DNA of 64,000 bases from Microbacterium suwonense (GTDB taxonomy: Bacteria; Actinomycetota; Actinomycetes; Actinomycetales; Microbacteriaceae), in contig NZ_AP027728.1 in assembly GCF_030296555.1 (NCBI RefSeq), forward strand, positions 310,001 to 374,000, given 5' to 3'. Positions 3,838 to 60,409 of this stretch are shown piece after piece. Numbering within the stretch: the stretch's first letter is position 1; each line of letters opens with the position of its first letter. Made by a program: the position numbers and the translations under genes. Below the pieces are notes generated by a model that ran no database searches, had not been told where the DNA came from, and saw only the letters and a program-made list of their open reading frames with translations.

Positions 3838-4842
3838 TCAGACCCGGCGCAGCAGCCCGATCTTGTCGTAGACGTCGGCGAGGGTGACATCGGCCACCTC
3901 GTCCGCCTTGGCAGCGTTCCCCGCCAGCACGCGGTCGAGCTCGGCCGGATCGTCGAGCAGCTCGTTCGCCCGCTCGCGAACAGGACCGAACTCGTTCACG
4001 ACGACCTCGGCGAGCCCCTTCTTGAAGTCTCCGTAGCCGCGGCCGGCGTATTCGTCCTCGATGGCGCCGATCTGCTGGCCGGTGAGGGCCGCATAGATCG
4101 TGAGCAGGTTCGAGACCCCGGGCTTGTTCTCGCGGTCGTAGTGCACCGAGCCCTCGGTATCGGTGACGGCGCGCATGATCTTCTTGGCCGATTTCGCGGG
4201 GTCATCTAGCAGCCACAGCACTCCGGCATCGCTCTCGGCGGACTTCGACATCTTCGCCGTCGGGTTCTGCAGGTCGTAGATGCGGGCGGTGTCCTTCTGG
4301 ATCACGGCCTTCGGAATCGTGAAGGCCTCGCCGAAGCGCTTGTTGAACCGCTCGGCGAGATCGCGGGTGAGCTCGACATGCTGCTTCTGGTCGTCGCCGA
4401 CGGGCACCAGCTCGGACTGGTACAGCAGGATGTCCGCAGCCATCAGCACCGGGTAGGTGAACAGGCCCACCGAGGTCGAATCCTGGCCGTAACGGGCCGA
4501 CTTGTCCTTGAACTGCGTCATCCGCCCGGCCTCGCCGAAGCCGGTGATGGTGCTGAGGATCCAGGCGAGCTCGGCGTGCGCGCGCACATGGGACTGCACG
4601 TACAGTGTCGACTTCGACGGCTCGATGCCGGCGGCGATGTACTGCGCGGCCGTGCGTCGGGTCTTCTCACGCAGCTCGGCCGGGGCCTGCGGCACGGTGA
4701 TGGCGTGCAGATCGACCACCGAGAAGAACGCGTCGAAGGAGGACTGCATCTCACGCCACTGCAGCAGCGCCCCGATGTAGTTGCCGGCCTGGAGGGAGTC
4801 GGCGGAGGGCTGCATTCCGGAGTAGAGGCGGGGTCTGGTCAC
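3838..4842 (-). CDS. trpS: Tryptophanyl-tRNA synthetase
   Basis: This class I synthetase charges tRNA-Trp. At 334 residues it has the normal length. Visible features are the HIGH-equivalent N-terminal segment [19 protein letters not shown] (residues 8-26) and the ATP loop KMSKS (197-201), with the Trp-pocket region [13 protein letters not shown] before it. The GTG start overlaps the xth stop (GTGA), so it is probably translationally coupled to xth. TAGGAT also lies six bases before the GTG and may give an internal leaderless promoter. Confidence 0.96.
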
Positions 4843-5725
4843 CGTTCAATCCTATGCGGCGCATCGTGCGCGCCCGATTCCGTCTCGGGGTACGCGTAGT
4901 CGACCACGACCGGCGCGTGGTCGCTCCAGCGCTCGGCATAGGATGCGGCGCGCGCCACGTGGTAGGACTGCGCGCGCTCGGCGAGGGCGGGGAGGCCAGG
5001 TGGTAGTCGATGCGCCAGCCGGTGTCGTTGTCGAACGCCTGGCCGCGCGCCGACCACCAGGTGTACGGACCGTCGACTTCGCCGTGGAAGCGGCGCCCCA
5101 CATCCACCCAGCCCAGCCCGGTGCCGACGGTGCCGTCGACACAGGTGATCTCACGGCCGGCCTCGCCGAGGAAGCGATCGAAATACGCCCGCTCGCGCGG
5201 CAGGAAGCCCGACTTCTTCCGGTTGCCTCGCCAGTTCTTGATGTCCAGCTCGCGGTGGCCGACGTTCAGGTCACCGGTGACGACGGCGAGCGCGTCGTCG
5301 GCCGCGAGCTCAGCCAGCCGCGGACCGAACGCCTCGAGGAACTTCCACTTCTCGTCCTGCTTCGGGGTGTCGGCCTCTCCGGAGTGCACATAGGCGCTGA
5401 CCACGGTGAACGGCCGGTCGCCGAGAAGGAAGTCGCCCTCCAGCCAGCGGCCCTTCGAATCGAAGTCGTCGTCGCCGAAGGCGGTGCGGGTGGCCAGCGC
5501 CGGCGTGCGGCTGACGATGGCGACTCCGGCGCGGCCCTTCGCCGTGGCCGGGTCGTGCACGATCGACCAGCCCGGGAACGCGGCTTCGAGGTGCTCGTCC
5601 TGGCCACGCACCTCCTGCAGGGTCAGGATGTCGACGTCGGCGGCGTCGAGCCAGGAGTGCATCCCATTGCGCACCGAAGCGCGGATTCCGTTGACGTTGA
5701 CACTGGCGACACGCAGGTGGGGCAT
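4839..5725 (-). CDS. xth: Exodeoxyribonuclease III (one frameshift in this sequence)
   Basis: This AP endonuclease / 3'-5' exonuclease acts in base excision repair. The N-terminal frame carries the ExoIII motifs [16 protein letters not shown] (metal-binding Glu), [18 protein letters not shown] and GWRIDYHLA. The frame then changes: the conserved ending [28 protein letters not shown] sequence, with its catalytic Asp-His, continues in another frame. Restoring one base near 4986-4991 (GCCTCCCCGCCCTCGC on the coding strand) rejoins a normal 295-residue protein ending IER at the TGA that overlaps trpS. I treat the break as a probable sequence error. ATG start, with TAGGCT seven bases upstream. Confidence 0.88.
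4849..4854 (-). promoter_or_regulatory. -10-like box TAGGAT before trpS
   Basis: TAGGAT ends six bases before the trpS GTG but lies inside the xth 3' end. It may be an internal leaderless promoter or a coincidence of coding sequence. Confidence 0.3.
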
Positions 5726-5732
5726 GCCCTCC

Positions 5733-5738
5733 AGCCTA
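5733..5738 (-). promoter_or_regulatory. -10-like box TAGGCT before xth
   Basis: TAGGCT lies seven bases before the xth ATG. The GGAGGGC between them could also act as a weak ribosome-binding site, so leaderless initiation is likely but not certain. Confidence 0.45.
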
Positions 5739-6887: not shown

Positions 6888-6903
6888 GCGGAGAAACGGG
6901 CGT

Positions 6904-7662: not shown

Positions 7663-7664
7663 GC

Positions 7665-10544: not shown

Positions 10545-11656
10545 ATGGGCCGAATCGACGACTTCTACGCGGTGATCCCTGCGGGCGGCATCGGCAGCAG
10601 GCTCTGGCCGCTGTCGCGTGCGGATGCACCGAAGTTCCTGCACGACCTCACCGGATCCGGTCACTCGCTGCTGCGCGACACCTGGGATCGGCTGATCCCA
10701 CTGGCGGGAGAGGACCGCATCGCCGTGGTCACCGGCCGTGCGCATCGTGCCGCAGTGGAGGGTCAGCTGCCGGGCATCCCGGACCGGAACGTCTTCCTCG
10801 AGTCCGAGCCGCGCGAGTCCGCCGCGGCGATCGGTCTGGCCGCAGCCGTCCTGCACCGCCGCGACCCGGACGTCATCATCGGCTCGTTCAGCGCCGATCA
10901 CGTCATCCGGGGCACCCAGGTGTTCGAGTGGGCCGTGCAGCAGGCCGTACAGGTGGCGCGTGCGGGGTACATCGTGACCATCGGCATTCCACCCACCGAG
11001 CCGTCGGTCGGCTTCGGGTACATCAAGCGCGCCGGCGAGATCGTCATCGACGGCGCCCCGGAGGCCACCCTCGTCGAGCGCTTCGTCGAGAAGCCCGACC
11101 TCGCGACGGCCAAGGACTACGTGGCCAGCCGCGACTACCTGTGGAACGCGGGAATGTTCATCTCGAAGGCGAGCGTGCTGCTGGACGAGCTCGCAGCCAA
11201 TGAGCCCGGCTGCACGCCGGGCTCCTGGAACTGGCCGAGGCATGGGACGATCGCGACCGGCGGGGGCCGGCCGTGGACCGCATCTGGCCGGGACTGAAGA
11301 AGATCGCCATCGACTACGCCGTTGCCGAGCCCGCCGCCGAGCGCGGGCATCTCGCGGTGATCCCCGGCCACTTCGACTGGGATGACGTGGGCGACTTCGC
11401 CTCGCTGACCAAGCTCATCAATCACGGGCGCAAGAACGACCTGGCCGTGCTCGGCCCGCGCGCGCGGGTGCTCACGGATGCCGCCAGCGGCATCCTGGTC
11501 AGCCAGACCTCGCGAGTGATCAGCCTGGTCGGAGTGAAGGACATCATCGTGGTCGACACCGACGATGCTCTGCTGGTGACCACCGTCGAGCACGCGCAGC
11601 GGGTGAAGGGCGTGGTGGAGTCGCTCAAGCTCACCGGCCGGGGCGACGTGCTCTGA
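10545..11656 (+). CDS. manC: Mannose-1-phosphate guanylyltransferase (one frameshift)
   Basis: This enzyme makes GDP-mannose from GTP and mannose 1-phosphate for glycan and glycolipid synthesis. It has the nucleotidyltransferase loop AGGIGSRLWPLSR (residues 13-25), the metal-binding FSADHVI, GYIKR, FVEKPD and WNAGMF. The frame breaks after ELAANEPG and resumes as VDRIWPGLKKIAIDYAV with GHFDWDDVGDF. Restoring one C near 11209-11211 (GGCTGCAC) reads through to a 370-residue protein of normal length, so the gene is probably intact in the organism. Confidence 0.9.
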
Positions 11657-18782: not shown

Positions 18783-18810
18783 GACCAGACTCGCGGCCAC
18801 GAGCCGAGAC

Positions 18811-26324: not shown

Positions 26325-28240
26325 ATGTCGCGTCGACGTCAGGACCAGCTGCTCGCCGTACTCAGGCGGGAGGATTCCTGGGTGACTGCCGCGGGGCTCG
26401 CCGACCAGCTCGGGGTGACTCCGCGCAGCATCCGCTCCTACGTCGCGGCGCTGAACGCTCGCACCCCCGGCGGGGAGGCCGTCGAGTCGGGGCCCGCCGG
26501 CTACCGCGCCGGCGCGGGCGCGGCCGATGCGGCGGGCGCGCCGGATGCCCAGAGCACTCCCCGAGCGCGGCTGCACGGTCTCATCCGCGCACTGGTCGAC
26601 CGGGCCGACGGCATCGACTTCCATGACACGGCGCTGACGATGCACGTCAGCGAGACGACCCTCGAGAACGATCTCGCCCGGGTGCGCACCCTGCTCGAGG
26701 GCGGGCAGGTCGTGCTGGAGCGCGACCGTGATCAGGTGCGGCTGCGCGGCGACGAGCCCTCGCTGCGGCGCCTGCTCAGCAGGCTCGCGCAGGACGAGAT
26801 GGATGCCGGACCGCTGCGGCCGGACGCGCTGCAGCGCGCACTCGCCCCCGGGACCGTGCCTGCCGGTCAGGTGGGGCCGTTCAAGGCAGGGCTCGTGCGC
26901 GACCTGGGCGAGCTGGGCTTCTACGTCAACGAGCTCGCGATCAGCGACGTGCTGCTGCACATCACCATCGCCGCCGAGCGTGTGGCGGCAGGTCGCCCGC
27001 TCGCCGAACGTGCCGAAGCCCCCGACGACTCCGTCGCCGCCGTCGGCGAGGCGATCGCCGCGCTCGCGCAGCGGCACTTCGGCGTCGCGCTCGGAGACGG
27101 CGACCGCGAGCATCTGGCGAACCTCGTGCTCACCCGTGTGGTCACCCCCGGCGAGCAGCGGCGGGCACACGCTCCGCATCTCGCCGACCCGGAGGTCGAG
27201 CGAGCGGTTCGCGCTGAGATCGAGCAGGCGTCCCGTGACTACCAGGTCGACCTCGTCGACGACGCCTTCATCGTGCGGCTCGCGCTGCACGTGCAGAACC
27301 TGCTGCGGCGGTCGAAGGAGCAGGCCTGGACCCGCAATCCGCTCACCCAGTCGCTGAAATCGTCCTATCCGATGATCTTCGACGTCGCGGTCTCGATCGC
27401 CAGCGGGCTGCACGACCGGCTCGGTGTGCCGCTGCAGGAGGACGAGATCGCCTACATCGCCATGCACGTGGGAGGGCGGCTCGAGCGCAGCAGGGCGGCG
27501 GATGCCATTCTCACCGCCACCATCGTCTGCCCCGGCTATCGCGAGCTGCAGGATCTGCTGCGCTCCAGCGTCGACAGATCCCTGGGCCGGCTGATCGAGG
27601 TCGTGCGAGTGGACACCAGCGTCGATCCCGACTGGAGCTCGCTCGACACCGACCTCGTCCTCAGCACGATCCCCGCGGCGGGCGCCGACGAGCGCGTGGT
27701 GCGCATCACCCCGTTCCTCGCCGAGGCGGACATCGAGCGCGTGCAGCAGGCCGCCGCACGCATCCGCCGTGCGCGCCGGCTGAGCAGGCTGCGTGAGGAG
27801 CTGCAGCGGTACTTCTCGGCCGATGCCTTCCTCGTGCCGGTGCCGGATGCCGGCGAGGAGGCGATCATCCGCCGGCTGGGCGGGATGCTGACGACGGCAG
27901 GCCTGATCGGCGAGGACTACATCGAGAACACCATCGTGCGGGAGCGGATGTCATCGACCGCGTTCACGGATGCCCTGGCAGTGCCGCACGCGCTGCAGAT
28001 GACAGCGCAGCGCACGGCCATCGCTATCGGCATCGCCGACGGATCGGTGGCCTGGGGGACGGCCGGGTCCAGGTCGTGGCGCTCGCCGCGTTCAGCGAGA
28101 GCGATCGGGATGCGTTCCAGACCGTGTTCGAGCAACTGGTCGAGGTGTTCAGCGAGCGCGACAGCGTACAGCGCATCGTGCGCCGCGCGAGCGGGTTCGA
28201 CGCCTTCCTGGATGAGCTGGTGGCCGTCATCGACGGCTGA
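26325..28240 (+). CDS. mtlR: MtlR/BglG-type PRD transcriptional activator (one frameshift)
   Basis: This is probably the mannitol operon activator, controlled by PTS phosphorylation. Domains in order are an N-terminal winged HTH (about residues 1-60, TAAGLADQLGVTPRSIRSYV), a second HTH-like region, two PRDs (about 190-420, with EDEIAYIAMHVGGRLER), an EIIB-like domain (ATIVCPGYRELQ, with Cys) and an EIIA-like domain (ALAVPHALQ, with His). The ending VQVVALAAFSES to VAVIDG lies in another frame. Restoring one G in the run at 28054-28058 gives 638 residues ending at the TGA at 28238-28240. Start ATG follows GAAAGGCGGG. Divergent from the operon it should control. Confidence 0.87.
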
Positions 28241-28540: not shown

Positions 28541-30238
28541 CCCGCTCCGCGAGGAGCTCCCGCACCGCGGCCTCCAGCTCCGCCACCGCGGCCTTCGCCT
28601 CGGCGGCGGTCGCGCCTCTGGCATCGAGGTAGATCTTCAGCTTCGGCTCGGTGCCGCTGGGGCGCACGACCACGCGCGACCCGTCCGTCAGGGCGTAGCG
28701 CAGCACATCCCCTGCGGGCCGGCCGGAATCGCTGCGGGACAGGTCGTCGACGACGGTGATCGCCCGGGCGCCGAACGACGCCGGCGGCTGTGCGCGCAGC
28801 GATGTCATCGTGCCGGCGATGATCGACAGGTCGTCGACTCGGACGGACACCTGGCCGCTGGCGAAATGCCCGATCTCGGCACCGAGCTCATCGAGCAGCC
28901 CGGTGATCGTGGTTCCGCGCACGCGGGCGTCGGCGGCCAGGCCCAGCATCGCGACCGCGGCCGAGATGCCGTCCTTGTCGCGCACGGTCTGCGGGTTCAC
29001 CAGATAGCCCAGCGCCTCTTCGAAGCCGAACGCGATCTCCGGGGCGCGGGAGATCCATTTGAAGCCGGTGAGGGTCTCGTGGAAGTCCAGTCCGTAGGCG
29101 GCGGCGACGGCCGCGAGCCCGGGGAGGAGACCAGCGAGCAGGCCAGCGATGCGCCCGGTGCGCCCTGCCCGTCCTGCTCAGCCCGTGCGCTCTTGACCGC
29201 CTTCGCGGCCCGCCAGCCCAGCAGCAGTCCGACCTCATTGCCGGTCAGCCGCCGCCAGCCGCCGTCAGCGCCGGCGTCGGGGACGGCGACGGCGAGCCGG
29301 TCGGCATCGGGGTCGTTGGCGATGATGAACTCCGCATCCACAGCACGGGCGCGGGCGAAGGCGAGATCCATCGCGCCGGGTTCCTCGGGGTTCGGGAATG
29401 AGACTGTGCGGAAGGCGGGATCGGGGTCGCGCTGCTCGTCGACCACTCGCGGTGCGGGGTAGCCTGCGCTCTTGACGACGCGCGAGAAGGTCTCCCAGCC
29501 GACACCGTGCATGGCCGTGTAGACCCAGCGCATCTCCTGTACGCCGAACGGCGCGGGAGCGACCGCGGCGGTGGCCGCGACGTACGCGTCCACGAGCTCC
29601 TCCCCGGCGATCTCGTACGCTGTCGAGCGAGGCAGCAGACCGACGTCCCCGGCATCCGCGACGCGCTGGATGTGTCCGGCGATGTCCGCGTCGGCGGGGG
29701 AGACGATCTGCGAGCCGGCGTCCGCACCGCCGAGGTACACCTTGTAGCCGTTGTCGTTCGGCGGGTTGTGGCTCGCCGTGACCATCACCCCGGCGTCTGC
29801 GCCGAGGTGCCGCACTGCGAACGCCAGCACGGGGGTGGGCAGCAGCCGGGGCAGCAGGATGGTGCGCAGCCCGGCACCGGCGAACAGCTCGGCGGAGTCC
29901 AGTGCGAAGCGCCGTGAATTGCGACGCCCGTCGTAGCCCACCACGACGGTGGGCGTGCCGGAGACGCGCTGCAGCAGATAGCCGGCAAAACCGGCGGCTG
30001 CCTGCGCGACGAGCACCCGGTTCATGCGGTTGCTGCCTGCGCCCAGCGCTCCGCGCAGGCCTGCGGTTCCGAACGCCAGACGGGTGCAGAAGCGGTCGTC
30101 GAGATCTGCGAGCGCCGCTGCCTCGCCGGCGGCCGCGCGGGTGATCAGCCCCGCCAGCTCGTCGCGGGTCTCGGCATCCGGGTCCTGCCGGAGCCAGGCC
30201 CGCGCCTGCGCGAGCCGCTCCTCGGTCGCGGTGCTCAC
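28500..30238 (-). CDS. Phosphoglucomutase/phosphomannomutase (one frameshift)
   Basis: This alpha-D-phosphohexomutase interconverts hexose 1- and 6-phosphates, or (given its neighbour) may act as a phosphopentomutase for purine nucleoside breakdown. Motifs are FGTAGLRG, the phosphoserine loop VMVTASHNPPNDNG, metal-binding NDPDADRLAVAV, GNEVGLLLGW and the phosphate-binding PSGTEPKLKIYL. The frame breaks after LACSLVSSPG and resumes as the expected FEEALGYLVN-type sequence. Restoring one base near 29118-29124 (CCCGGGG) gives 579 residues, normal for the family. GTG start overlaps the nucleoside phosphorylase stop. Confidence 0.88.
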
Positions 30239-35138: not shown

Positions 35139-36358
35139 ATGACCTCCTCACAGCCCATCCTCGATCTCGACATCACCGGGATCGCTCACGGCGGCACCTT
35201 CATCGCCCGGCACGAGGGGCGGGTGGTCTTCGTGCCCGATGCGATCCCCGGTGAGCGCGTGCGGGTGCGGATCACGGATGCGGGCAAGGCCTCGTTCTGG
35301 CGCGCCGAGGCATTGGAGGTGCTGGAGGCGTCTCCGCATCGCCGCGCGCATGTGTGGGCCGAAGCCGACATCTCCCGCGCTCCCGAGGATCGCGTGGGCG
35401 GTGCGGATCTCGGCCACATCATTCTCGGCGCGCAGCGCGTGCTCAAGCGCAGGGTGCTGCAGGAGGCGCTGGACAAGTTCGCCGGGCCGGGCATCGAGGC
35501 GCCCGAGGTGCAGGCCGTCGACGCTGTGACGGACTCGGCGCAGACCAGGAGCGACGGCACCGGCTGGCGCACCCGGGTCTCGCTGCACGTGGACGCGGAC
35601 GGGCGGGTAGGCCCGTACGCGGCGCGCAGTCACCGTGTGATCGACGTCGCGAGCCTGCCGCTGGCGCGTCCCGCCGTGGCGGAGGCCGCCTTCGCGCTGC
35701 GCCCGCAGAAGCCGGGCCGGGTCGACCTGGTCGAGCCAGGGGATGGTCGTGTGCGCGTGCTGCCGCGGCCGGAGGGTGCGCGTCGCGGCAAGCCCCAGAC
35801 GGTGTTCGAGTTCGCCGGTGGGCGGCGCTTCCGTGTGGACGCCGGTGGCTTCTGGCAGGTGCATCCGCAGGCGGCCGACGCGCTGCATCGGGCGGTCGGC
35901 GAGGCGCTGGGGGCCGGCTCGATCCGGATGCGACCCATTTCGACCTGTACGGCGGGGTGGGGCTGTTCGCCGCCACGCTCGGCGAGCAGGGAGCACGGGA
36001 CATCGTGACCGTGGAGTCCGACCGGCGGGCGACCGAGCATGCCGCCGCGAACCTGGCGGAGTTCGACGCGCAGGCCGTCACCGGCCGCGTGGACCGCTTC
36101 CTGTCCGGGCTGCCGGAGGGGACCAGGGCCGGCGCGGTGGTGCTGGATCCGCCGCGGGCAGGGGCGGGGCGAGTGGTGGTGGAGTCGATCCATGCACTCG
36201 ATCCCGAGGCTGTGGTCTACGTCGCCTGCGATCCGGTCGCGTTGGCCAGGGATCTCGGGACGTTCCGGGAGCTCGGCTGGCAGGCCGCATCGCTGCAGGC
36301 GTTCGATCTGTTCCCGCACTCGCACCACTTCGAGACCGTCGCGCTGCTCACGCGCTGA
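35139..36358 (+). CDS. TRAM-domain RNA methyltransferase, TrmA/RlmD family (one frameshift)
   Basis: This class I SAM-dependent enzyme probably makes 5-methyluridine in tRNA or rRNA. An N-terminal TRAM domain (about residues 1-60, LDITGIAHGGTFIARHEGRVVFV) leads to the catalytic domain with GGFWQVHPQAADAL, the SAM motif FDLYGGVGLFAATL, LDPPRAGAG (family DPPR) and YVACDPVALARDL. The frame breaks after LGAGSI; restoring one C near 35923-35925 (GATCCGG) rejoins PDATHFDLYGG and gives 406 residues. The usual YxSC catalytic Cys is here VYVACDP. Which uridine is modified cannot be told. Confidence 0.85.
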
Positions 36359-39828: not shown

Positions 39829-41418
39829 TCACAGCGGGATGTTCCCGTGCTTCTTGGGCGGCAGGTCGGCACGCTTGCCCTTCAGCGCGCGCAGCGCCTT
39901 GGCGATGGCTACGCGGGTGTTCGCCGGCTCGATGACGCCGTCGATCTCACCGCGCTCAGCCGCCAGGAACGGCGAGGTGACGCTGTAGGTGTACTCATTG
40001 GCCAGGCGGGTGCGCACCGCGGCGACGTCTTCGCCGTTCTCCTCGGCCTTCTTGATCTCGCCGCGGTACAGGATGTTCACCGCGCCCTGGCCGCCCATCA
40101 CGGCGATCTCCGCCGTCGGCCAGGCCAGGTTCACGTCGGCGCCGAGCTGCTTGGAGCCCATCACGATGTAGGCGCCGCCGTAGGCCTTGCGCAGGATCAC
40201 CGTCACGAGGGGGACGGTGGCCTCGGCATAGGCGTAGATCAGCTTCGCACCGCGGCGGATCACGCCCGTCCACTCCTGGTCGGTGCCGGGCAGGTAGCCG
40301 GGCACGTCGACGAGCGTGACGATCGGGATCGAGAAGGAGTCGCAGAAGCGCACGAAGCGGCTGGCCTTCTCGCCGGCCTCGATGTTGAGGGTTCCGGCCA
40401 TCTGGGAGGGCTGGTTGGCGATGATGCCCACAGAGCGCCCCTCGATCCGGCCGAAGCCGATCACGATGTTCGGGGCGAACAGCGGCTGCACTTCGAGGAA
40501 GTCGCCCTCGTCGACGACGTGCTCGATCACGGTGTGGATGTCGTAGGGCTGGTTGGGGGAGTCGGGGATGATCGTGTTCAGGCGCTGATCGGCATCCGTC
40601 GTCTCCCAGTCGAAGTCGGCGGCGTATCCGGGCAGCTCCGCCATGTTGTTGTCGGGGAGGAAGCTGAGCAGGGTGCGGGCGTAGTCGAGGGCGTCGTCCT
40701 CGTCGGATGCCAGGTAGTGCGCGACGCCGGAGCGGGTGTTGTGCGTGTAGGCGCCGCCGAGTTCCTCCATGCCGACGTCCTCGCCGGTGACCGTCTTGAT
40801 GACGTCGGGTCCGGTGACGAACATCTGGCTGGTCTTGTCGACCATGATCACGAAATCGGTGAGGGCGGGGCCGTACACGGCGCCACCGGCGGCCGGACCC
40901 ATGATGATGGAGATCTGGGGGATGACGCCCGAGGAGCGGGTGTTCATCTTGAAGATCTCGCCGTACTTGCTCAGTGCCAGCACGCCCTCCTGGATGCGGG
41001 CGCCGCCGGAGTCGAGGATGCCGACGACGGGCATGCCGCTGGTGAGGGCGAACTCCATGATCTTGATGATCTTGTCGCCGGACACCTCGCCGAGTGAGCC
41101 GCCGAAGGTGGTGAAGTCCTGCGAGTAGACGGCGACGGTGCGGCCGTGGATGGTGCCGATGCCGGTGACGACGGAGTCGCCGTACGGGCGGTTGCGGTCC
41201 ATGCCGAAAGCGGTGGTGCGGTGGCGCACGTATTCGTCGAACTCGACGAAACTGCCGTTGTCGACGAGAAGCTCGATGCGCTCGCGGGCGGTCATCTTGC
41301 CCTTGGCGTGCTGCTTCTGCTGGGCGATCTTCTCCGGCTGGACGACGGCTTCGTCGAAACGCGCGCGAAGGTCCGCGATCTTCGCGGCCGTGGTCGAGAG
41401 GTCAGGGGTGTCCGTCAC
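39829..41418 (-). CDS. accD5: Acyl-CoA carboxylase beta subunit (carboxyltransferase)
   Basis: The 529-residue protein transfers carboxyl from biotin to acetyl- or propionyl-CoA. Motifs are the N-half [32 protein letters not shown] (oxyanion hole) and [14 protein letters not shown], and the C-half [11 protein letters not shown] and [12 protein letters not shown] (second oxyanion hole). The whole matches propionyl-CoA carboxylase beta chains. I chose the GTG at 41418 (TDTPDLST) because TAGGGT lies seven bases upstream; an in-frame ATG at 41463 is the alternative. Confidence 0.94.
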
Positions 41419-41425
41419 GGATTCC

Positions 41426-41431
41426 ACCCTA
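41426..41431 (-). promoter_or_regulatory. -10-like box TAGGGT before accD5
   Basis: TAGGGT lies seven bases before the preferred GTG start. If real, it rules out the longer ATG start. Confidence 0.45.
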
Positions 41432-41526
41432 GCGTCGGCGGTCGTTGCGCCGTTGGATGCCATGCACAACGGATTCGGGAATCCCTTGGCAGATGCGGAT
41501 GCTCACGTGACTGCGCGGTGGCGTGG

Positions 41527-42362
41527 TCAGCAGCCGGGTGCGGTCGGCGCCTCGGTGCAGGTGTGCGCGACCAGGGCGGTGCGGGCCTCGTAGATGCGGA
41601 TCTCCTGGGCGGGGCCGGGAAGTGTGAGGGTGCCGCTGATTCGGAACCAGCCGGCGCCGAGGTCGATCTCGGCGGTGTAGGTGGTGTCGACATGCGCCTG
41701 GTAGGTGCCGCGCTCCTGATAGGTGTGGCTCGTGTCGGTTGGAGTGAACTGAGCGAGGTTGAGATCCTGCCAGCTGCGTCCGGCGGTGGTCGTGGTGTGC
41801 GTCTGCCCGTCGCCGTAGTGGAAGGTGAAGGATGCCGGGGTGAATCGTGCGGCGATCGCATAGCCGAACAGGGTGCCGTTGCGGGTGTGCACGCCCGCGT
41901 CTGCGGTGAAGTTGGTCGGGAGCCCGGCGACGCCGAGGTTGTCGGGTTCGCCGGTGAGGATGCTCGGTGCCGGAGCGAAGGATGCGAGGTCGGTGATCGT
42001 GAACGTGGGGGTGGCGGGCGTGCCGTCTTCGTCACTCGGTTCGGCGTCCTTGGGGGTCAGCCGCAGGCATTCGTCGAGGCTGGTCCACTCCACGCAGCGG
42101 CTGTCGAACGGATGCGTCGGCTTCGGCGGCCTCGGTGGCTTCGGTGTGACGTCGATGTTCGCGGTGGGAGCGTTCGGGGTGGAGGGGAAGACTCGGAGTG
42201 CCTTGTGGGCTGGTCGGCCTGAGATCCCGGGATCGTCTTCTCCCCGCTGATCTGGACTCCTTCTCCGTTGTTCTGTCCGGAGCAAGTCATAGTGGGAATC
42301 GGGCATTGAACTGGCGCGTCTCCGACGCCGCCGAAGATGAGGAGAAAAACTATTGGGAGCAT
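41527..42362 (-). CDS. Secreted PKD-like protein (one frameshift)
   Basis: The start region encodes a short hydrophobic signal (MLPIVFLLIFGGVGDAPVQC) in one frame, while the body (LRVFPSTPNAPTANIDVTP to the end) is in another. Restoring one base in CCCGGG at 42226-42231 joins them as EKTIPGISGRPAHKALR, giving 278 residues. The body has a Pro-rich linker, then a PKD-like beta domain with FTFHYGDGQTHTT and HTYQERGTYQAHVDTTY, and ends in a Cys-containing TCTEAPTAPGC. It is likely secreted or surface-bound. The ATG overlaps the upstream lipoprotein stop, with AGCAGG two bases before it. Function unknown. Confidence 0.72.
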
Positions 42363-42901
42363 GTCCTGCTCTCATCTCCGGTCGTGCTGATCACGCGCAG
42401 CCCGGTGGACGTATCTGCTGCGTTGAAGTCGACGAGCAATGACTGAACGGGCGCACGCCCTTCAGGAATCAGCGATGCACCTTTTGAGTCGATGACGTCG
42501 GTGTTCGAGACGTCTGCGCATATATGTAAGGAGACGGTTCCTGCATTTGTATCAGTAGCAATTCCGGTGACTGTGACAATCTCGGTATCTCCTACTAGAG
42601 AGACATTCTCGGCGTGGAGTTCGCTCAGTGACTTTTTCAGTGCAGTCGAGGCTTGGCCCGAAGCCCAATACATCACGGGTTCGAAGGTTTTTGGATCCCC
42701 TGTGTCGACGTCATTCAACGCATCCGTATACGCCCGATACGTCTCTTCCGCGGCCTTGAAAGCATCCTCGTCCGACGAGAACAGCGCGGTCTTCGTCGGC
42801 GTGGGCTTCGGCTCGGGCGTGCAGGCCGCCAGCGTCCCGAGCGCGAGCAGCCCAGCGGAGAGCGCGCCGATGGCACGGACGGAGGCGGTCGCAGAAGTCA
42901 C
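42350..42901 (-). CDS. Putative lipoprotein
   Basis: The 183-residue protein has a signal with lipobox LGTLAACTPEP (Cys about 27), then a Pro/Thr linker and a soluble domain with DEDAFKAAEETYRAYTDALNDVDTG, a pattern seen in NTF2-like or DUF-type exported lipoproteins. GC of its second half (about 42300-42650) is visibly low for the window (ATA, TTT and TCT codons), hinting at transfer or relaxed selection. GTG start with TACCGT six bases upstream. It is co-transcribed with the PKD-like gene. Function unknown. Confidence 0.8.
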   Translation of the reverse strand: MTSATASVRAIGALSAGLLALGTLAACTPEPKPTPTKTALFSSDEDAFKAAEETYRAYTDALNDVDTGDPKTFEPVMYWASGQASTALKKSLSELHAENVSLVGDTEIVTVTGIATDTNAGTVSLHICADVSNTDVIDSKGASLIPEGRAPVQSLLVDFNAADTSTGLRVISTTGDESRTCSQ

Positions 42902-42907
42902 CCGGCT

Positions 42908-42913
42908 ACGGTA
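42908..42913 (-). promoter_or_regulatory. -10-like box TACCGT, leaderless start
   Basis: TACCGT ends six bases before the lipoprotein GTG. Confidence 0.45.
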
Positions 42914-43055
42914 ACGCGAACGCGATCACCGCCGCAGAAGTTATCCACAGGATCGATATCGGCGGCAACGTGATCAGTCCGAACCAGAGCTGAAGCTGAT
43001 CAGTTGAAGAAGTGCATGCGCGCGCCTCGCAGGAGACGCACTGGTGCCCTTGATC

Positions 43056-44638
43056 TCAGAAGGGTGCGTCGATGTCGTGGGGAGCCATTTGGCGTGCGGT
43101 CTTGCCGGGTGGTGGTGTGTCCGATCCTGCCGGCCCTGGTTCCACGGGTACGAACATGACCCGTCGGGGCGGCCGGTCCTGGTGGATCCTGCCGGTGGGG
43201 CTGGTCCATTCGAGGGTCCAGTCGGGGAGCGCCGGGCGGACCAGCGATGAGCATCCGGAACATCGGGATGCTTCAGCGCATGATGGGTTCTGCAGAGATG
43301 GGCGAGATTGTTCAGCGCCGTTCTGCCGCCCTTGGCGTGGTCGAAGGTGTGGTCGGTGTCGCAGCGGTGGACGGGCATGCGGCATCCGGGGAAGCGGCAG
43401 TGCTGGTCTCGGGCCCGCAGATGACGACGCATGGCGGCGGTAGGGGTGTAGGCGTCGGTTTCGGTGACGAGCCCGGTCGGATCGAGGAACAGACGGCTCC
43501 AGCTGGTGGCACCGCTGGCGAGGGCGCGAGCGACATCGGGGTGGATGGGGCCGTGGCCATCGAGAAGGGCAGGAAGGTCGTCTGCGTCGGTGAGGGTGCT
43601 GCGGGAGACGGTCACCTGGAGGTGCGCGGTGATGTTCTCCAGGCCGGTGCCCTGCACGGTCGTAGGAGAAGCTCCGAGAAGAAGGTCGGTGAGCAGATCG
43701 GCGCGGATCTGGTCGAGGGAGCGGGTGTCGGCCGGGATGCGGGTGACCTGCGGCCCGGTGGCGATCATCTTCTCGATGTGTTCCCAGTACGCGGCCGACT
43801 CCGCATCCGCATCGACTTCGTCGGGGAAGGGGTCGCGGGTGAACGTATCGGCTCCGAAGATCGCCCCGTTGGCGTCAGCACCGGCATCGTCGGCGCGGGC
43901 GCCTCTCCCATCGCCCTCAGCGTCGGGCCCCTGACTCTCGGCATCCCGCTCATCGTCGGGGAGGGTGGGGGTGCGGTGGTCGGGGTGCTGTTTCTGGTGG
44001 CGGGCCATCCGGGTCAGGCGATCCATGATCGCCACGGCGAGGTGTTCGGGGAGGACGGCTTGGAGCAGGGCGAGTCCGTCGCCGATCGGGCGGATGTTCA
44101 CCTCGCGTTCCGCGGCGGCGACTCGATGGCGGTCGGCAATGGTGAGTCCGGCCAGTGCGGCAGCGAGTTCTCGTACGTGTGCACGGGTGCGGGCCGGTGC
44201 CTCGCGGGCCGCGAACTCCAGCGCACCGGCCTCGTACAGGGTCAGCGTGTCGGCGGGGAGGGCCCCGTCGGACACTCCCCGCGTCACTTCGGAGGAGGCG
44301 CGCAGGATCTCTCGCACGTGCCCGGCGCTGATCTCTCCTGCCCGGAACGACGCTTTCAGCGTGGGGAAGGACTCGGACAGCAGGTGCGCGTCGGCGAAGG
44401 CATGCTCGAGCGACCCTTTCGCGATCCGCCCTGCGGCAGAGTACTCCGCGATCATCGACCGCCAGATGGCGTCCCGATGCATCGGCGCCTCCGCCACGTC
44501 GGCATCCATCAGCGTCACCCGCCGTGCGAGCAGCTCCGACGCGTGCGCCTCGAGAGCGGCGATCTGCCGACGTGTTCTGATCCACTCGTCCAGCAGGGCA
44601 CCCTGCTCTTCAAGCCGGGAGATCAGTGCGGTGGACAT
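43056..44638 (-). CDS. DUF222 / HNH endonuclease domain protein (one frameshift)
   Basis: This family (13E12 repeat type) is abundant in Actinobacteria and of unclear role. The N-terminal DUF222 part (about residues 20-380) includes AEREVNIRPIGDGLALLQAVLP. The HNH part has RDQHCRFPGC, CDTDHTFDH and NLAHLCRTHHALKH, with all metal-binding Cys/His present. After that the usual ending (LPDWTLEWTSPTGR to APHDIDAPF) is in another frame. Restoring one base near 43231-43236 (GCCGGGC) gives 527 residues. Without the repair the frame would run on to 42974. ATG start with TAGACT six bases upstream. Confidence 0.85.
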
Positions 44639-44644
44639 GCCCCC

Positions 44645-44650
44645 AGTCTA
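44645..44650 (-). promoter_or_regulatory. -10-like box TAGACT, leaderless start
   Basis: TAGACT ends six bases before the DUF222/HNH ATG. Confidence 0.45.
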
Positions 44651-44756
44651 GTACAAAGATTCGAATAACGGAAGTGTTGTGGTGAAGAATCACGGGCGTG
44701 TCTCGTCACGGTTGCGCCCGCTCAACGACGGGGTTGAGCATCGGAGCGGAACAGCA

Positions 44757-45059
44757 TCACACGACGAACCGCCAGACGTACTCGAGTCCGTCGTGCTGCC
44801 GGAACCAGGCGATCGTGACGACGAGTTCGTCGAGATCACCGTCGCACAGACACAGTTCGATCGTCTCGCTCGGCAGAACCTGACCCCACAGCTCCACGAG
44901 CCGGCCGTCGTCCGCGTCGCTGCGCAGCACCTTGACGAAGTCCACGGGCTCCTTGCCGGCGTTCATCACCATGGGATGCGCGCGATCCTTTCGGGTCACC
45001 ACCCACGGCACGCAGTACGCGGTCGGCGGCGGAGGGCTCGTGTCGAGAGAATGCAGCAT
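44757..45059 (-). CDS. Hypothetical protein (100 aa)
   Basis: I do not recognise a named family. The sequence has VMNAGKEPVDFVKVLRS, IELCLCDGDLDELVVTIAWF and the ending GLEYVWRFVV, which read like a small beta-sandwich; the alternation of hydrophobic and polar residues and two Cys near the middle support a real protein. It has no signal or membrane segment. TAGCGT lies six bases before the ATG, the same arrangement as many genes here. It stands alone between two genes on the same strand, and the 118 bases after it hold only the HNH gene promoter. Confidence 0.65.
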   Translation of the reverse strand: MLHSLDTSPPPPTAYCVPWVVTRKDRAHPMVMNAGKEPVDFVKVLRSDADDGRLVELWGQVLPSETIELCLCDGDLDELVVTIAWFRQHDGLEYVWRFVV

Positions 45060-45065
45060 TCCGCC

Positions 45066-45071
45066 ACGCTA
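45066..45071 (-). promoter_or_regulatory. -10-like box TAGCGT, leaderless start
   Basis: TAGCGT ends six bases before the start of the 100-residue hypothetical gene. Confidence 0.4.
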
Positions 45072-45137
45072 AGAACTTCCGCCGACGCCGGAACGCCCCT
45101 GACGACGCGGTTCACCTGACCTGTGCAGAAGTCGCTG

Positions 45138-46070
45138 TCAGCCGGCTGATGTGGAGGGCGAGTCGGGCGCGGGAGTCACGACGATCTCAGCGGACGATCC
45201 GGATGCCGAGCTGCCCTCGGCATCCGCTCGCCTGCCTCGTCTGCCCAGTCGGGACGTGACGCCTGCTCCGAGCCGGCGTGCACCGTCCAGCATCCGTCGC
45301 TCGAGCTTCTCGCTTCCCGCCTCGGGCTCCAGTTCGGGCGGCAGCCACGGGGGAGCGGCGCCGAACGCGCGACGGGAGTTGCTCAGCACGCGCCGTCCGA
45401 GCAGATGGTTACCCGCCCCGCCGACGACCGCGCCGACGCCGAACGGCAGCGCCTTTCCCAGAAACGATGCTCCGCCACGCGCAGCGAACTGGCGGATGAA
45501 TGCCGTCTTCAGCCGATCCACCAGAGGCCCCACCGCCGCGCGCGGGAGCGACTTCGTGACCAGCTCGCCCCAGTACGACGAGCGGGTCCCTCCCTTGCCT
45601 GCCGCCTGCTTCGCCAGCTGCGAGACCAGGTCGATGCCCTCCTTGCCGAGCATCAGCGCCATCACAAGTGCCCGCGCGCGCTCCGGATCGCTGACCGCGA
45701 TGCCGTGCACCTCGGCGACGGACTGAGCGAACAGCGCAGTCGACTCCATGAAGCCGAGGGTCTCCGCACCCGACAGCGCCAGAGTGACGCCGGTGCCGAT
45801 CCCGGGTACCACGGCGGTCGCGCCGACTGCGGCGCCGCCGGTGGTCACGGCGGCAAGATAGCGGGTCTGGAGGATGCCGACGATATCGTGCGGCGTCGCG
45901 TGCGGATGGCACAGACGGATGCTGCGGATGTGAGCCACGACCAGCGGCCGCTGCACCGCGAGCACCCGGTCGAGGCTGCGACCCGAGAAGGAGCGCTGCT
46001 GCCACGCCGACGGCACAGGCGCCGGCGCATCGTCCGGAAGGACGTACAGCCTGTGGATCTTCTCTGGCAT
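45138..46070 (-). CDS. Hypothetical protein with Gly/Ala-rich hydrophobic core (EcsC-like?)
   Basis: The 310-residue protein has no signal peptide. Two stretches are hydrophobic and small-residue rich: VTTGGAAVGATAVVPGIGTG (about 95-115) and GKALPFGVGAVVGGAGNHLLG (about 205-225). They could dip into the membrane; the spacing and the segment SVAEVHGIAVSDPERARALVMAL recall EcsC-family proteins, but I am not sure. The C-terminus is disordered, basic then Ser-rich. TAGGAT lies six bases before the ATG. Function unknown. Confidence 0.7.
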   Translation of the reverse strand: MPEKIHRLYVLPDDAPAPVPSAWQQRSFSGRSLDRVLAVQRPLVVAHIRSIRLCHPHATPHDIVGILQTRYLAAVTTGGAAVGATAVVPGIGTGVTLALSGAETLGFMESTALFAQSVAEVHGIAVSDPERARALVMALMLGKEGIDLVSQLAKQAAGKGGTRSSYWGELVTKSLPRAAVGPLVDRLKTAFIRQFAARGGASFLGKALPFGVGAVVGGAGNHLLGRRVLSNSRRAFGAAPPWLPPELEPEAGSEKLERRMLDGARRLGAGVTSRLGRRGRRADAEGSSASGSSAEIVVTPAPDSPSTSAG

Positions 46071-47103: not shown

Positions 47104-48986
47104 ATGACCGCATCGATACCTCTCTCAGGGAACGCGGCGGATCCTGACACGCCCGCGGCGGCGAAGAAGGCGGCGGCGAGCACGACGAAGAAGGCGGCGG
47201 CGAAGACCGCTGCCTCCCAGGGAACATCCCAGAGCACGGTTGCCAAAAAGACGGTTAAGAGCACACCGGTCAAGAAGACGGCCAAGAGCACGCCGGCCAA
47301 GAGCGCAGCGGCGGGGACTGCCGCGGCGAAGAAGGCGGCATCGACCACTGCTGCGTCGAAGTCCGCGGCAGCCAAACGGACGGCCGCTACGACCGCAGCG
47401 AAGACCGCCGCCGCGAAGAAGGCCGCTGCTGCTCGTGCCGAGGCCAAAGAGACGGCGAAGGCGTCCGAGGCGAAGACCGCCGCCGCGAAGGCAGCTGCGG
47501 TGAAGAAGGGCGCGTCGACCACGACCCCGTCGAAGAAGACCACGACTGCGGCGAAGAAGACGGCGACTGCGGCGAAGAAGGCCACGAGCTCTACCTCGGC
47601 GACGTCCAAGACCGCCGCCTTGAAGTCGCGCGCTTCGGCGTCCACGTCGAAGACTGCGACCACGCCGACCAAGAAGTCCGCACCCACCAAGAAGGCCACC
47701 GCAGCCAAGAACTCGGCGGCCACGTCCACCGCGGCGGCGAAGAAGACCGGCCCGGCCAAGGGCTCCGAGTCGAAGGTGACGAGCGGGGAGCCCGCTTCAG
47801 GAGCCGATGTCGCTCGGCCGGCGGCATCCGATCCGTCCATCATCACCTTTGTCCCCGCAGTCGGCGCTGACGCGCCGGCAGTCGGCACTGAGTCGACGGA
47901 TGCCGAAGACGCCGTCTCCGCGCGCCGCGCGACAGCCGCCTCGGACAGCGCCCCTGCTTCTGAGGAAGCCCGCTCGTCTCGTGGGGCCGCAGTGACCGAC
48001 GATACGACCGCGGCGAGTACCGCATCGGCCTCCGTCGACACCGCACCCGAACTCGACACCGCACCCGAACTCGACACCGCACCCGAACTCGACAGCGCAC
48101 CCGAACCCGACACCGCACCCGAACCGGTCTCGGCTGCGGAGCCCGCTGACCCCGCAGCCGAGACGGTCGTCACCGCTGTGCCCGTCACCGACGTGCCCAC
48201 CACCGGCACCCCCGCCGACGCCGGTGCGGCCGATGCCATCCGCATCCGTGGGCTCGTGAAGCGCTTCGGTGACTCCCGTGCCGTCGACGGCATCGATCTG
48301 ACGGTGCCCGCCGGCTCGTTCTACGGGCTGGTCGGACCCAACGGCGCGGGCAAGACCACCACTCTCTCGATCATCGCCGGACTGCTGCGTCCGGATGCAG
48401 GAACGGTGCACATCAGCGGCATCGACCAGCACGCGAATCCGCTCGGCGCGAAGCGTGTGATGGGCGTGCTGCCCGACCGGCTGCGCACTTTCGACCGGCT
48501 CACCGGCCGTCAGCTGCTGCACTACTACGGGCAGCTGCGGGGCTGGATCGTCCTGTGATCGACAAGCGCATCGGCGACCTCGCGCGTGCCTTCGACCTCA
48601 CCGAGGCGCTCGGCCGGGTCGTATCGGACTACTCGGCAGGCATGACGAAGAAGCTCATGCTCGCCGGGGCGCTGATCCATTCCCCGCGCGTGCTGGTGCT
48701 CGACGAGCCCTTCGAAGCCGTCGATCCCGTCTCGTCGGGGGTGATCCTCGACATCCTGCGCGCCTACGTCGACCACGGCGGCACCGTGATCCTCTCCAGT
48801 CACGGCATGGATCTGGTGGAGCAGGTGTGTTCCCGGGTCGCGGTGATCGTCAGCGGAGAGGTGCTCGCCGAGGGGACCGTCGACGAGGTGCGCGCCGGTC
48901 AGACGCTGGCCGCCCGATTCGTCGAGCTCTCCGGCAGCGGCGGCGAAGTGGAGGGGCTCGAGTGGTTGCACACGTTCTCCGACTGA
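47104..48986 (+). CDS. ABC exporter ATPase with histone-H1-like N-terminal tail (one frameshift)
   Basis: Residues 1 to about 240 are almost only Ala, Lys, Thr and Ser (KKAAASTTKKAAAKT, AKKAASTTAAS and so on), like bacterial H1-type DNA-binding tails. Residues about 240-370 are acidic, with five DTAPEL-type repeats. The ATPase follows (from about 376): Walker A GPNGAGKTT (about 411), signature YSAGMTKKLML, Walker B VLVLDEPFEAVDP and switch His in ILSSHG. The frame breaks at QLRG; restoring one C at 48541-48544 gives LDRPVIDKRIGDLARAF and 627 residues. The ATG has no well-placed ribosome-binding site; see the GTG at 47079. It pairs with the overlapping permease gene. Confidence 0.85.
48034..48123 (+). 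repeat. 18-bp tandem repeat coding for (L/V)DTAPE
   Basis: Five in-frame copies of an 18-base unit close to CTCGACACCGCACCCGAA encode the acidic hexapeptide repeats of the ABC ATPase tail. One copy has Ser for Thr and one Pro for Leu. Confidence 0.9.
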
Positions 48987-52279: not shown

Positions 52280-53737
52280 ATGACGCAGCCGGATGACCTG
52301 GAGAGACTGGCGAACAGCGTGCTGTGGCCCGGTTTTCTCGGCGATCGAGTGCCGGACTGGCTGACGGATGCCCTGCAGAACGGCCTGGCGGGAGTCGTGT
52401 ACTTCGCACAGAATCTCGTCGGCGACACCGCCCAGCTGAGCGCGCAGATCCACCGCATCTCCCCGCATGCACTGATCGGCATCGACGAGGAGGGCGGCAG
52501 CGTCACGCGCCTGGAGACCGGCACCGGCTCCACCGTGCCCGGCGCCGCCGAGCTGGGTGCGCTCGACGATCTCGACGCGACCCGCGCGACCGGCCGCGAG
52601 ATCGGTCGCCGTGTGGCCGCCGTCGGTGCGGATGTCGTCATCGCCCCCGTCGCCGATGTGAACACCGATCCCCGCAACCCGGTCATCGGCGTGCGGGCGT
52701 TCGGCTCCAGCACCGAGCTCGTCTCGCGTCATGTGGCGGCCGCCGTACGCGGCATCCAGTCCACCGGCGTCGCCGCCTGCGCCAAGCACTATCCCGGCCA
52801 CGGCGACACGCACACCGACTCGCATCATGACCTGCCGCGGATCACGCTGGGACAGGACGAGATCGACCAGGTGCACCTGCCCCCGTTCGCGGCGGCCGTC
52901 GATGCCGGGGTGCGGGCCATCATGACCGCGCACATCGCCGCACCGCAGTGGGGTGAGGCGCCGGCCACCCTCAACCCGCTCGTGCTCGGACGTCTGCGCG
53001 CGGACGGCTTCGACGGGGTGGTCGTGACCGACGCCCTCGACATGGCCGCGATCCGCGAGAGCGTCGGGATCGGCGGAGGAGCGGTGCAGGCGCTGGCCGC
53101 CGGCGCCGACCTGCTGTGCGTCGGCAATCCGACCAATCCGGGTGAGGCGATGCTGCCCGATCAGGACGAGCGGGACTATCTTCAGGCGCGGGATGCCGTG
53201 GTCGCGGCGCTGCGCTCGGGGAGCTGCCGCGTGCGCGGGTGGAAGAGGCAGCCCGTCGCGTCGCCGCGCTGGCCGGTGCAGTGCGCTCGCGCGGATCGGT
53301 CGCCGAGGAGCCGTTCGACGCCGACGGCATCGCCGACCGCGCACTGCGCGTCGACGGATCCTTCCCGCCCCTGCCGGACGCACCTACGACCGTGATCGAC
53401 CTGCGCCGCGCCTCATCGCTCGCGGTCGACAGCGCGGCATCGCACGTCGCAGAGGCGCTCGCGGCCGGAGGCGAGGTGGTGCGGCTGGATGCGGAAGGGG
53501 CCGCGGATGCCGAGATCGCCGCAGCCGGCGCGCCGAGCATCGTGCTCGTGGATCGCTTAGACCCGGATGCCGCGCAGCGGACCGTGCAGGAGCGCATCCG
53601 CGCGGAGCTCCCCGGGATCGTGACGGTCAACGTCGGTCTGGCCGTCGACGCCGCCGAGCCCGTGATCACGGCATCCGCGGCGAGTCTGCTCTCCGCTCGC
53701 GCTGCCCGCCGGGCGCTGCTGCGAGGAGCCGGCGGAT
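52280..53737 (+). CDS. nagZ: Beta-N-acetylhexosaminidase NagZ, GH3 (one frameshift; end fused in this sequence)
   Basis: NagZ removes GlcNAc from muropeptide disaccharides in wall recycling. GH3 motifs are GIDEEGGSVTRL, ACAKHYPGHGDTHTDSHHDLP (general acid/base His) and VVTDALDMAAI (nucleophile Asp). There is no signal peptide, so it acts in the cytoplasm. The frame breaks after AALRSG; one G restored at 53218-53221 gives ELPRARVEEAARRVAAL and the C-terminal domain. That then runs without a stop into MurQ. Adding two bases (GA) after 53737 would create GGATGACC, a TGA stop for NagZ overlapping an ATG for MurQ. GAGGAGGAG precedes the ATG at 52280. Confidence 0.87.
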
Positions 53738-55568: not shown

Positions 55569-56308
55569 ATGACCGACATCGTGCGCGCCGACGGCCGCTC
55601 CACCGATCAGCTTCGCGAGATCACCATCGAGCGCGGATGGTCCGCGAACGCCGAGGGCTCGGCCCTGATCAGCTTCGGCGGCACGAAGGTGCTGTGCACC
55701 GCGTCGTTCACCAACGGCGTGCCGCGCTGGCTGACAGGGAAGGGCAAGGGTGGGTCACCGCCGAGTACGCCATGCTGCCTCGTGCCACCAACAGCCGCAA
55801 CGACCGCGAGAGCGTGAAGGGTCGCATCGGCGGCCGCACCCATGAGATCTCCCGCCTGATCGGCCGTGCGCTGCGCGCGGTGGTCGATACCAAGGCGCTC
55901 GGCGAGAACACGATCGTCATCGACTGCGACGTGCTGCAGGCCGACGGCGGAACCCGCACCGCGGCGATCACCGGCGCGTACGTCGCGCTGGCCGATGCCA
56001 TCGAGTGGGGACGCGAGAAGAGGTTCATCGGCCGCAACTCCACGCCGCTGCTGGACTCGGTCGCCGCCGTCTCGGTCGGCATCATCGACGGCGAGCCCAT
56101 GCTCGATCTGGCATACGTCGAGGATGTGCGCGCCGAGACCGACATGAACATCGTCGTCACCGGCCGTGGGCTGTTCGTCGAGGTGCAGGGCACCGCAGAG
56201 GGGGCGCCCTTCGACAAGCGCGAACTGGATGCGCTGCTGGAACTCGGGGTGAACGGCTGCGCGAGCCTGAAGGAGCATCAGCTCGCCGCGCTGTCGGTGG
56301 ATGCCTGA
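55569..56308 (+). CDS. rph: Ribonuclease PH (one frameshift)
   Basis: RNase PH trims tRNA 3' ends phosphorolytically. [27 protein letters not shown] start and [15 protein letters not shown] are in one frame. From [17 protein letters not shown] on, with [40 protein letters not shown] and the acidic site [15 protein letters not shown], it is in another. One G restored in GGG at 55748-55750 gives [12 protein letters not shown] and 246 residues, the family length. The 3' end overlaps rdgB by one base. Confidence 0.92.
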
Positions 56309-56981: not shown

Positions 56982-56987
56982 GGAGGT

Positions 56988-57908: not shown

Positions 57909-57932
57909 CGGCGGCGCAGCGCTCGCGACGGC

Positions 57933-60409
57933 TCAGGTCTCCTGCCGGACCTCGCGGGGATCCTTGTCGGGCCGCAGTCCGCGCCAGCGTGCGTGACGCA
58001 GGATGCCGCCCGGCGACCAGTTCGCGAACTCCACCTCCCCGACCAGCTCGGGACGCACCCATTGCGCGTCCGAGGCATCGGCGGACGGCACCCCTGCGAG
58101 CCCCGGCGACGATGCGCGCAGCGGCTCCAGTCGGGCGGCGAGGTCGCGCAGCATCCGGTCGGTGAACCCGGTGCCGACGCGGCCCACGTACCGCAGGGAG
58201 CCGTCCTGGTCGGGCACGGCGAGCAGCAGCGAGCCGATCGTGCCGCTGCGGTTGCCGCGGCCGGGACGGATGCCGACGATCACCGCCTCCTGCGTGCGGG
58301 TGTGCTTGAGTTTCAGCCACGACGACGATCGTGCTCCGGGACGGTAACCGGACTCCGGGTCCTTCGCGACGACCCCCTCCAGCCCGTACCGCGCACTCAC
58401 AGCCAGTGCCGCGTCGAGATCGTCGAAGACGGGCGGAACCTGCACGGGAGCGGTCACATCGGCGGTGAGCTGCTCCAGCAGCTCCCGGCGCTGCCGCAGC
58501 GGCAGCCGGCTGAGATCGTGCCCGTCCAGCCGCATCAGGTCGAACAGCACGTACCTCACCGGTGTTCGCGCGGCCTCGCGCTCGATCTCGCGGGCGCGGG
58601 TGAGGTGCATCCGGTCCTGCAGTCGGCTGAAACTGGGTCGCCCCTGCGCGTCGAAGGCGACGATCTCGCCGTCGACGACGGCATCGGATGCCGGCAGGCT
58701 CAGCGAGCTCGGGGAGGTCAGTTCCGGGTATCGCCCGGTGATGTCGGTGCCGCTGCGTGCTCGCAGCGTGAGGCGGTCGTCGGCCCAGGTGCCGATGGCG
58801 CGGATGCCGTCCCATTTCACCTCGGCCCAGGACGGCGTGCTGAGCGCCCGGGCCAGGCCCGGCGTGCCGGTCTCGGCGAGCATCGGACGGATGCGGGCAG
58901 CGTCGCCCCTCTCGCGTGCTGCTTCGTGCGCGTGCTCAGGAGCATCCTGCAGTGCCGGCTGTGACGTGCGCTGTGACAGGTGCGGGTTCGTGCGCTGTCT
59001 CGTGTGCTGTTTCGTGCGCGGTGCACCGGCATCCGGCATCCGATGCAGCAGCCACTGCGACTTCTCGCCCTCGCCTTCGGTGCGGATCAGGGCGAGCCGC
59101 GCCGAGCCGAGCCGGCCGCCCGCTCTTCCGGTGAAGGTGCCGATCACCTCGTCGTCGCGCCATTTCTCCAGCATCACCGTGCCGATGTCCCAGACGGTCA
59201 TCGACCCTGCGCCGTACTCACCCTGGGGGATCTCGCCCTCGAATGTGAGGTACTCCAGTGGGTGCGGCTCGGTCATCACGGCGAGATGATTGCGCTCCGA
59301 GGTCTCGGGGACCCCTTGGGCACAGCCCAGCTGATCAGCACGCCGTCACGCTCGATGCGCAGGTCGTAGTGCAGGCTGCTGGCGTGATGCTCCTGGATCA
59401 CGAAGCGCGGCGCCGTCGCGGTAGCGGCATATGCCGCGCGCGGCATGGGCTCGGGAGTCTTCGCGGCGTCGCGTTTGGCGAGGTAGGAGGCCAGTGCCGG
59501 ATGCGGCGAAGCGAGCGCGGCGAGCGGATCGATGCCGGCATCCACCCGCTCCAGCACCTCGGCGAACTCGAGGTGCCGCAGCTCCGGATCGTCCAGCTCT
59601 TCCCAGGTGCGCGGCGCCGCCACCAAGGGATGCGCGCGGCCGCGCAGCGAGTAGGGGGCGATGGTGGTCTTGGAGGTGCTGTTCTGACTCCAGTCGATGA
59701 ACACCCTGCCGGTGCGCGCGGTCTTTGCCATCGTGTGCGTGGCGATTTCGGGATGATCCGCCTCGATCAGCCGCGCGAGCTCCTTGGCGACGGCCGAGAC
59801 CTCGTCGCTGGTCTGCCTGCCGGTGCCGTCGTCGGTGGTCGGCAGACGCGCGTACAGATGGATGCCCTTGCTGCCGCTGGTCACCGGCAGCGGCTCCAGA
59901 CCCATGCCGGTGAGGATGCCGCGAGCGATCCGCGCGACCGCGGCGCACTGCGCGAGCCCCGCACCGGGGCCGGGGTCGAGATCCAGCACGAGACGGTCGG
60001 GTCGGCCGCGGCCACCGGAATGCGTGAACCGCCACTGCGGCACGTGCAGCTCCAGCGCGGCCACCTGCGCGAACCACGCCAGCGTGGCGACGTCATCGGC
60101 GAGAGGGTACTCCTTCGGCCCCTCGGAGTGCTCGATCGGCATCCGCCGCACCCAGTCCGGCGCGCCCTGCTCCAGTTGCTTGGCGAAGAAGCTCTCCGCC
60201 GGAGCATCCGTGGTGCCGACCCCGTCCACCCAGCGCTTGCGCGTGACCGGGCGGCCGCGCAGGTGCGGCAGCATGACGGGCGCGACGCGGGTGCAGTACT
60301 CGAGGATCTCGCCCTTCGTCGTGCCGGTCTCGGGGTAGACGACCTTGTCGAGATTGGTCACGCGCAGGCGACGGCCATCCACCCGCACGACCTGCCCGCT
60401 CGCTGCCAT
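57933..60409 (-). CDS. ligD: ATP-dependent DNA ligase LigD, Pol-PE-Lig (one frameshift)
   Basis: LigD repairs double-strand breaks with Ku. The first frame has the polymerase/primase domain (about residues 1-290: [43 protein letters not shown]) and the start of the phosphoesterase domain ([22 protein letters not shown]). The frame breaks at WAVPKG; one base restored in CCCC at 59312-59315 rejoins [18 protein letters not shown] repeat-rich hinge leads to the ligase domain with the AMP-Lys in EVKWDGIRA and [14 protein letters not shown]. The repaired length is 825 residues. Domain order matches mycobacterial LigD. ATG start with TACTCT six bases upstream. Confidence 0.92.
58988..59023 (-). repeat. 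12-bp tandem repeat in the LigD hinge
   Basis: Three adjacent copies of a 12-base unit close to TCGTGCGCTGTC (plus strand) encode part of a His/Thr/Gln/Arg-rich linker between the phosphoesterase and ligase domains. The linker is likely flexible and variable. Confidence 0.6.

Follow-up and report, generated by a model that had tools for sequence, protein, structure and literature searches.

The stretch of Microbacterium DNA analysed here, hereafter the window (64,000 nucleotides, positions 310001–374000 of a genome recorded as a single contig of 3,163,981 bases), raises the question of whether genes that lose their reading frame at a single site are broken in the organism or only in its recorded sequence. 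A preliminary description had listed eleven such genes, each lacking one base, and had proposed uncorrected homopolymer deletion as the cause. The GC content of the window is approximately 69%. In the relatives search, 34 other genomes belong to the same genus, and the closest named loci found for an intact window protein are likewise from Microbacterium, with amino acid identities of at most 86%, a value from which the window's own record was possibly excluded. The window shows extensive collinearity with five congeners (G033, G029, G021, G002, and G034), which match 50.7–57.1 kb of it, with DNA identities of 70–86% in the longest matches.

Breaks were called using tblastn with intact congener ORFs against the window, a break being a single relative protein that runs on in another frame. 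When every ORF served as a query, numerous shadow-frame matches and apparent gains appeared; most of them disappeared once the queries were restricted to ORFs picked by codon-position GC. Both counts used here required two or more relatives: the strict one demanded an identical small net in them, and the looser one accepted any net of up to 40. Individual sites respond to the filters: the phosphohexomutase break is lost if match overlap is limited to 20 residues or fewer, and the break in the ABC transporter ATPase gene is supported by five relatives in one scan and by one in the looser and strict counts.

Compared with intact congener genes, all eleven named genes are indeed broken, ten of them firmly and the PKD-labelled gene on weaker similarity (Table 1). 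Alignment of the sites to close relatives, which the preliminary description had suggested as a check, assigned the one-base-loss class to every one of them. Nine breaks lie within approximately 10 bases of the positions given earlier, but two were placed elsewhere, namely those of the TRAM methyltransferase (previously 35923–35925), which was moved by protein similarity, and of the PKD-labelled gene (previously 42226–42231), which was moved by similarity and a profile. The DUF222-type break, previously at 43231–43236, was also shifted slightly, to approximately 43224–43231.

Table 1. Frame breaks in the eleven window genes (window coordinates), with their support, adjoining G/C runs, and family or domain matches of an intact relative.
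Gene	Position	Strand	Support	Adjoining run	Matches of intact relative
xth (exodeoxyribonuclease III)	4985–4993	−	5/5 relatives, net −1	GGGG 4989–4992	TIGR00633
manC (mannose-1-phosphate guanylyltransferase)	11208–11210	+	5/5 relatives, net −1	CCC 11205–11207	TIGR01479 (under its cut-off); ManC_GMP_beta-helix
PRD/PTS-EIIA regulator (mtlR-like)	28054–28061	+	5/5 relatives, net −1	GGGGG 28054–28058	Pfam HTH_11, PRD, PTS_EIIA_2
Phosphohexomutase	29114–29125	−	4/5 relatives, net +5 (gene strand), loss class modulo 3	CCC 29118–29120; GGGG 29121–29124	Pfam PGM_PMM I–IV; NCBIfam match (under curated cut-off)
TRAM-domain RNA methyltransferase	35909–35913	+	3/5 relatives, net −1	GGGGG	Pfam TRAM, tRNA_U5-meth_tr; NCBIfam match (under curated cut-off)
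PKD-labelled gene	42159–42179 (approximate)	−	3/11 homologous loci cross the break
DUF222-type gene	43224–43231	−	Frame switch in 11/11 homologous loci	GGGG 43224–43227	DUF222
ABC transporter ATPase	48537–48543	+	5/5 relatives, net −1	GGGG 48539–48542	ABC_tran
nagZ-type beta-N-acetylhexosaminidase	53210–53221	+	1/5 relatives (G033), net −1	GGGG 53218–53221	GH3; NF003740 (under its cut-off)
rph (ribonuclease PH)	55746–55751	+	4/5 relatives, net −1	GGG 55748–55750	TIGR01966
ligD (DNA ligase D)	59307–59317	−	3/5 relatives, net −1	GGGG 59307–59310; CCCC 59312–59315	NF007210

Several of these sites call for comment. The manC break adjoins no run longer than three bases, and that of rph touches GGG runs only. 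The earlier statement that the missing base is G or C in every gene goes beyond what the comparison shows. The fifth relative, G029, reveals the phosphohexomutase break solely through another ORF, with a net of +8. The interval given for the ABC transporter gene depends on one antisense ORF, and the sense ORFs of G033 and G021 put the break at 48540–48543. The DUF222-type and PKD-labelled genes have no counterpart in the five syntenic regions and were compared with homologous loci elsewhere in the genus. For the latter gene, the upstream matches of the three crossing loci are weak (25–41 bits); a profile of the 11 relatives matched the upstream piece with an E value of 1.5e-5 and the downstream piece with 1.8e-109, in different frames of the loss class. 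Family searches on intact relatives support the other gene names, but "PKD protein" is not borne out: the single intact relative submitted to Pfam yielded no domain. Both genes reside in a segment (window positions ~41500–45250) that is unmatched by the longest matches of the five syntenic regions, and positions 40001–44000 combine a lower GC content (0.655) with a high GC skew. Their homologues are located elsewhere in congeners; in G115, both are found on one contig, approximately 1 kb apart.

The breaks extend far beyond the window. Six 60-kb stretches of the same genome were sampled in 400-kb steps (regions A–F), of which A–D and F were compared with stretches drawn from relatives; none were drawn for region E (2300001–2360000), which lies outside the comparison. 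The strict count gave 34 breaks in 214,876 bp (window plus five stretches), versus a single break when the same method was applied to 523,277 bp from the relatives. They are distributed as 7 in the window, 2 in A, 12 in B, 7 in C, 1 in D, and 5 in F, and the density of approximately 1 per 6.3 kb, if extrapolated, probably corresponds to several hundred such breaks genome-wide. The estimates of completeness (96.1%) and contamination (3.9%) for the whole genome would fit split marker genes in a single-contig genome as well. The claim that no gene is broken twice is correct for the compared part of the window. Elsewhere in the genome it fails, since no fewer than three genes, those for a phosphofructokinase, a PaaC, and a transporter, carry two breaks apiece. 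The sole strict break among the relatives, in G034 (L028–L031, concatenated position ~67870), has a net of −1 against two relatives and is either an error or a real pseudogene.

The breaks point towards loss. Among the 34 strict breaks, 29 have a net of −1, two of +2, two of +5, and one of −2, the +2 and +5 nets belonging to the loss class modulo 3; a one-base gain (+1) was not found among them. Breaks seen through a single relative comprise 18 with a net of −1, one of +4 (gain class), and two of −4 in this genome, so that all 18 exact one-base breaks with such support are losses. The corresponding breaks in the relatives have mixed nets (−1 five times, +1 eight times, −2 and +2 four times each, and −4, +4, and −5 once each), indicating no loss bias there. 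The looser count yielded 12 clusters in the relatives and 46 in this genome, of which 44 belong to the loss class. The other two, both of the gain class, are a window cluster at 18784–18810 with discordant nets (+25 and +32) and the region B break whose net is −2. In addition, approximately 7 kb of the window was without a relative in this count, and therefore more breaks may exist there. The break with a net of −2, seen against three of three relatives, lies at L076:773–775 (genome 1120773–1120775) and apparently reflects the loss of two bases.

The sequence context of the breaks was analysed for 47 located breaks, i.e., those with an exact net of −1 whose local identity to a relative reached 60% or more (30 of them through at least two relatives), one site of poor local identity and all sites with other nets being excluded. 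Of these, 34 touch a G or C run that is either exactly four (22 breaks) or five (12 breaks) bases long, versus 5.4% of random places, and the other 13 touch no run of at least four. Six-base G/C runs occur at only 0.7 per 100 kb in 424 kb of this genome versus 4.2–17.1 in five relatives, while four- and five-base runs in the same sample are within the relatives' range, the fives not being clearly depleted. A process that mostly shortens sixes, and fives only rarely, would be expected to leave scarce sixes beside normal fours and fives. A/T runs, which are rare in this genome, showed no visible depletion in the sampled 424 kb. Over the whole genome, GGGGGG is present 52 times on both strands, versus 320, 355, 363, 457, 458, 549, 557, 860, and 1120 times in nine hand-picked single-contig congeners, two of which are also among the five comparison relatives.

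Collectively, the single direction of the breaks, their concentration at homopolymers, the scarcity of long runs, and the damage to indispensable single-copy genes described below leave little doubt that the breaks are homopolymer-length deletions left uncorrected in a long-read assembly, present genome-wide, and errors of the sequence rather than of the organism. The cause proposed in the preliminary description thus gains support from loss-only breaks beyond the window, the depletion of six-base runs, and the genes affected. The assembly would under-count the lengths of G and C runs, so that runs of six or more would mostly be recorded too short and runs of five occasionally; the consensus would have been left uncorrected afterwards, and every under-count within a gene would appear as a one-base frame loss. 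We infer both the longer runs in the reads and the run lengths before the loss. Since the genome is a single contig, the platform was presumably an error-prone long-read one, most likely of the nanopore type. Against this reading count the 13 located breaks that touch no run of at least four bases, the fives that are not clearly depleted, the uneven density (from 12 in region B to 1 in D), and the one single-relative net of +4, as well as the insertions and the excess at A/T runs reported for another assembly (PMC12007338).

Such errors are familiar from nanopore assemblies, in which residual homopolymer-length indels are reported to shift reading frames and to be detectable against related genomes (Kastor, PMC12007338; Homopolish, PMC8011154), and the present genome resembles the long-read-only bacterial assemblies described in these sources. 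PMC12007338 describes the Pss508 assembly (59% GC), in which most deletions come after homopolymers four to five bases long, errors are approximately twice as numerous at A/T as at G/C runs, and insertions occur too. Unlike in that description, no one-base insertion is found here, the runs at located breaks consist of G or C, and the GC content is ~69%. A literature search for a frameshifted nanopore genome of Microbacterium brought up a single paper, on phage isolation.

Within an artefactual origin, run length alone may not account for all of the breaks, part of which may have arisen where base modification at a motif disturbed the signal. The motif CTCCTC/GAGGAG is indeed found near 8 of the 47 located breaks versus 0.55 expected, in regions A, B, D, and F, and some of these sites have no long run. 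Sites in this context lie in L072–L077, L081–L083, and L087–L089, and the enrichment may reflect either sequence context or base modification. Nevertheless, a search for a methylation-type motif by k-mer depletion and context enrichment found none consistently affected among the k-mers examined, and GAGGGAG is not depleted (45 copies, i.e., 10.6 per 100 kb versus 8.4–18.6 in the relatives). This contribution is considered rather unlikely.

If the deletions were instead real, they could represent gene decay in a strain with a deletion-biased mutator background, and the breaks do stand in the recorded sequence itself. However, the genes for translation initiation factor IF-2 (infB) and proline–tRNA ligase (proS), both outside the window, are broken against three of three relatives each (at genome positions 1141379–1141388 and approximately 1146902–1146941, respectively), and whole-genome family searches found each of them only once, as two adjoining pieces in different frames. 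Growth is not possible without infB or proS. Their breakage would thus be intolerable for a living cell, indicating that the breaks are not biology. A glyceraldehyde-3-phosphate dehydrogenase gene, a fabD-type gene, and the twice-broken phosphofructokinase gene, also outside the window, were not spared either. Moreover, decay should produce gains alongside losses, yet the well-supported breaks include no one-base gain. In-frame stops within matches, as judged from at least two relatives, number 13 here versus 41 in the relatives' larger sample, which is proportional to the sequence compared and no excess; this count also takes in stops that precede a true start or fall between adjacent genes. 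Furthermore, apart from the breaks, collinearity between the window and its relatives is preserved. Pseudogene formation is accordingly very improbable. It is scarcely credible that the deletions are physically present and that hundreds of genes, including infB and proS, are kept functional by ribosome or RNA polymerase slippage restoring the frame at G/C runs: slippage is conceivable at the 34 located breaks that touch runs of four to five bases, but the sampled 424 kb (with a relative for comparison over ~290 kb) contains ~2,700 such runs (646 per 100 kb), of which the located breaks touch only 34, and efficient slippage at these runs would wreck far more genes than it saved, while the 13 breaks that touch no run of this length and the differing contexts offer no common slippery site, the relatives do not display the pattern, and the genome-wide scarcity of six-base runs would be left unexplained.

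In all likelihood, then, the breaks are an ordinary artefact of sequencing rather than a real biological feature, and their significance is limited to a warning about data from this genome, which represents its species in the collection searched. By extrapolation, gene content, pseudogene counts, completeness, and protein lengths derived from it are probably wrong for several hundred genes. Comparison of the GGGGGG count with that of congeners provides a fast, read-free test of quality.
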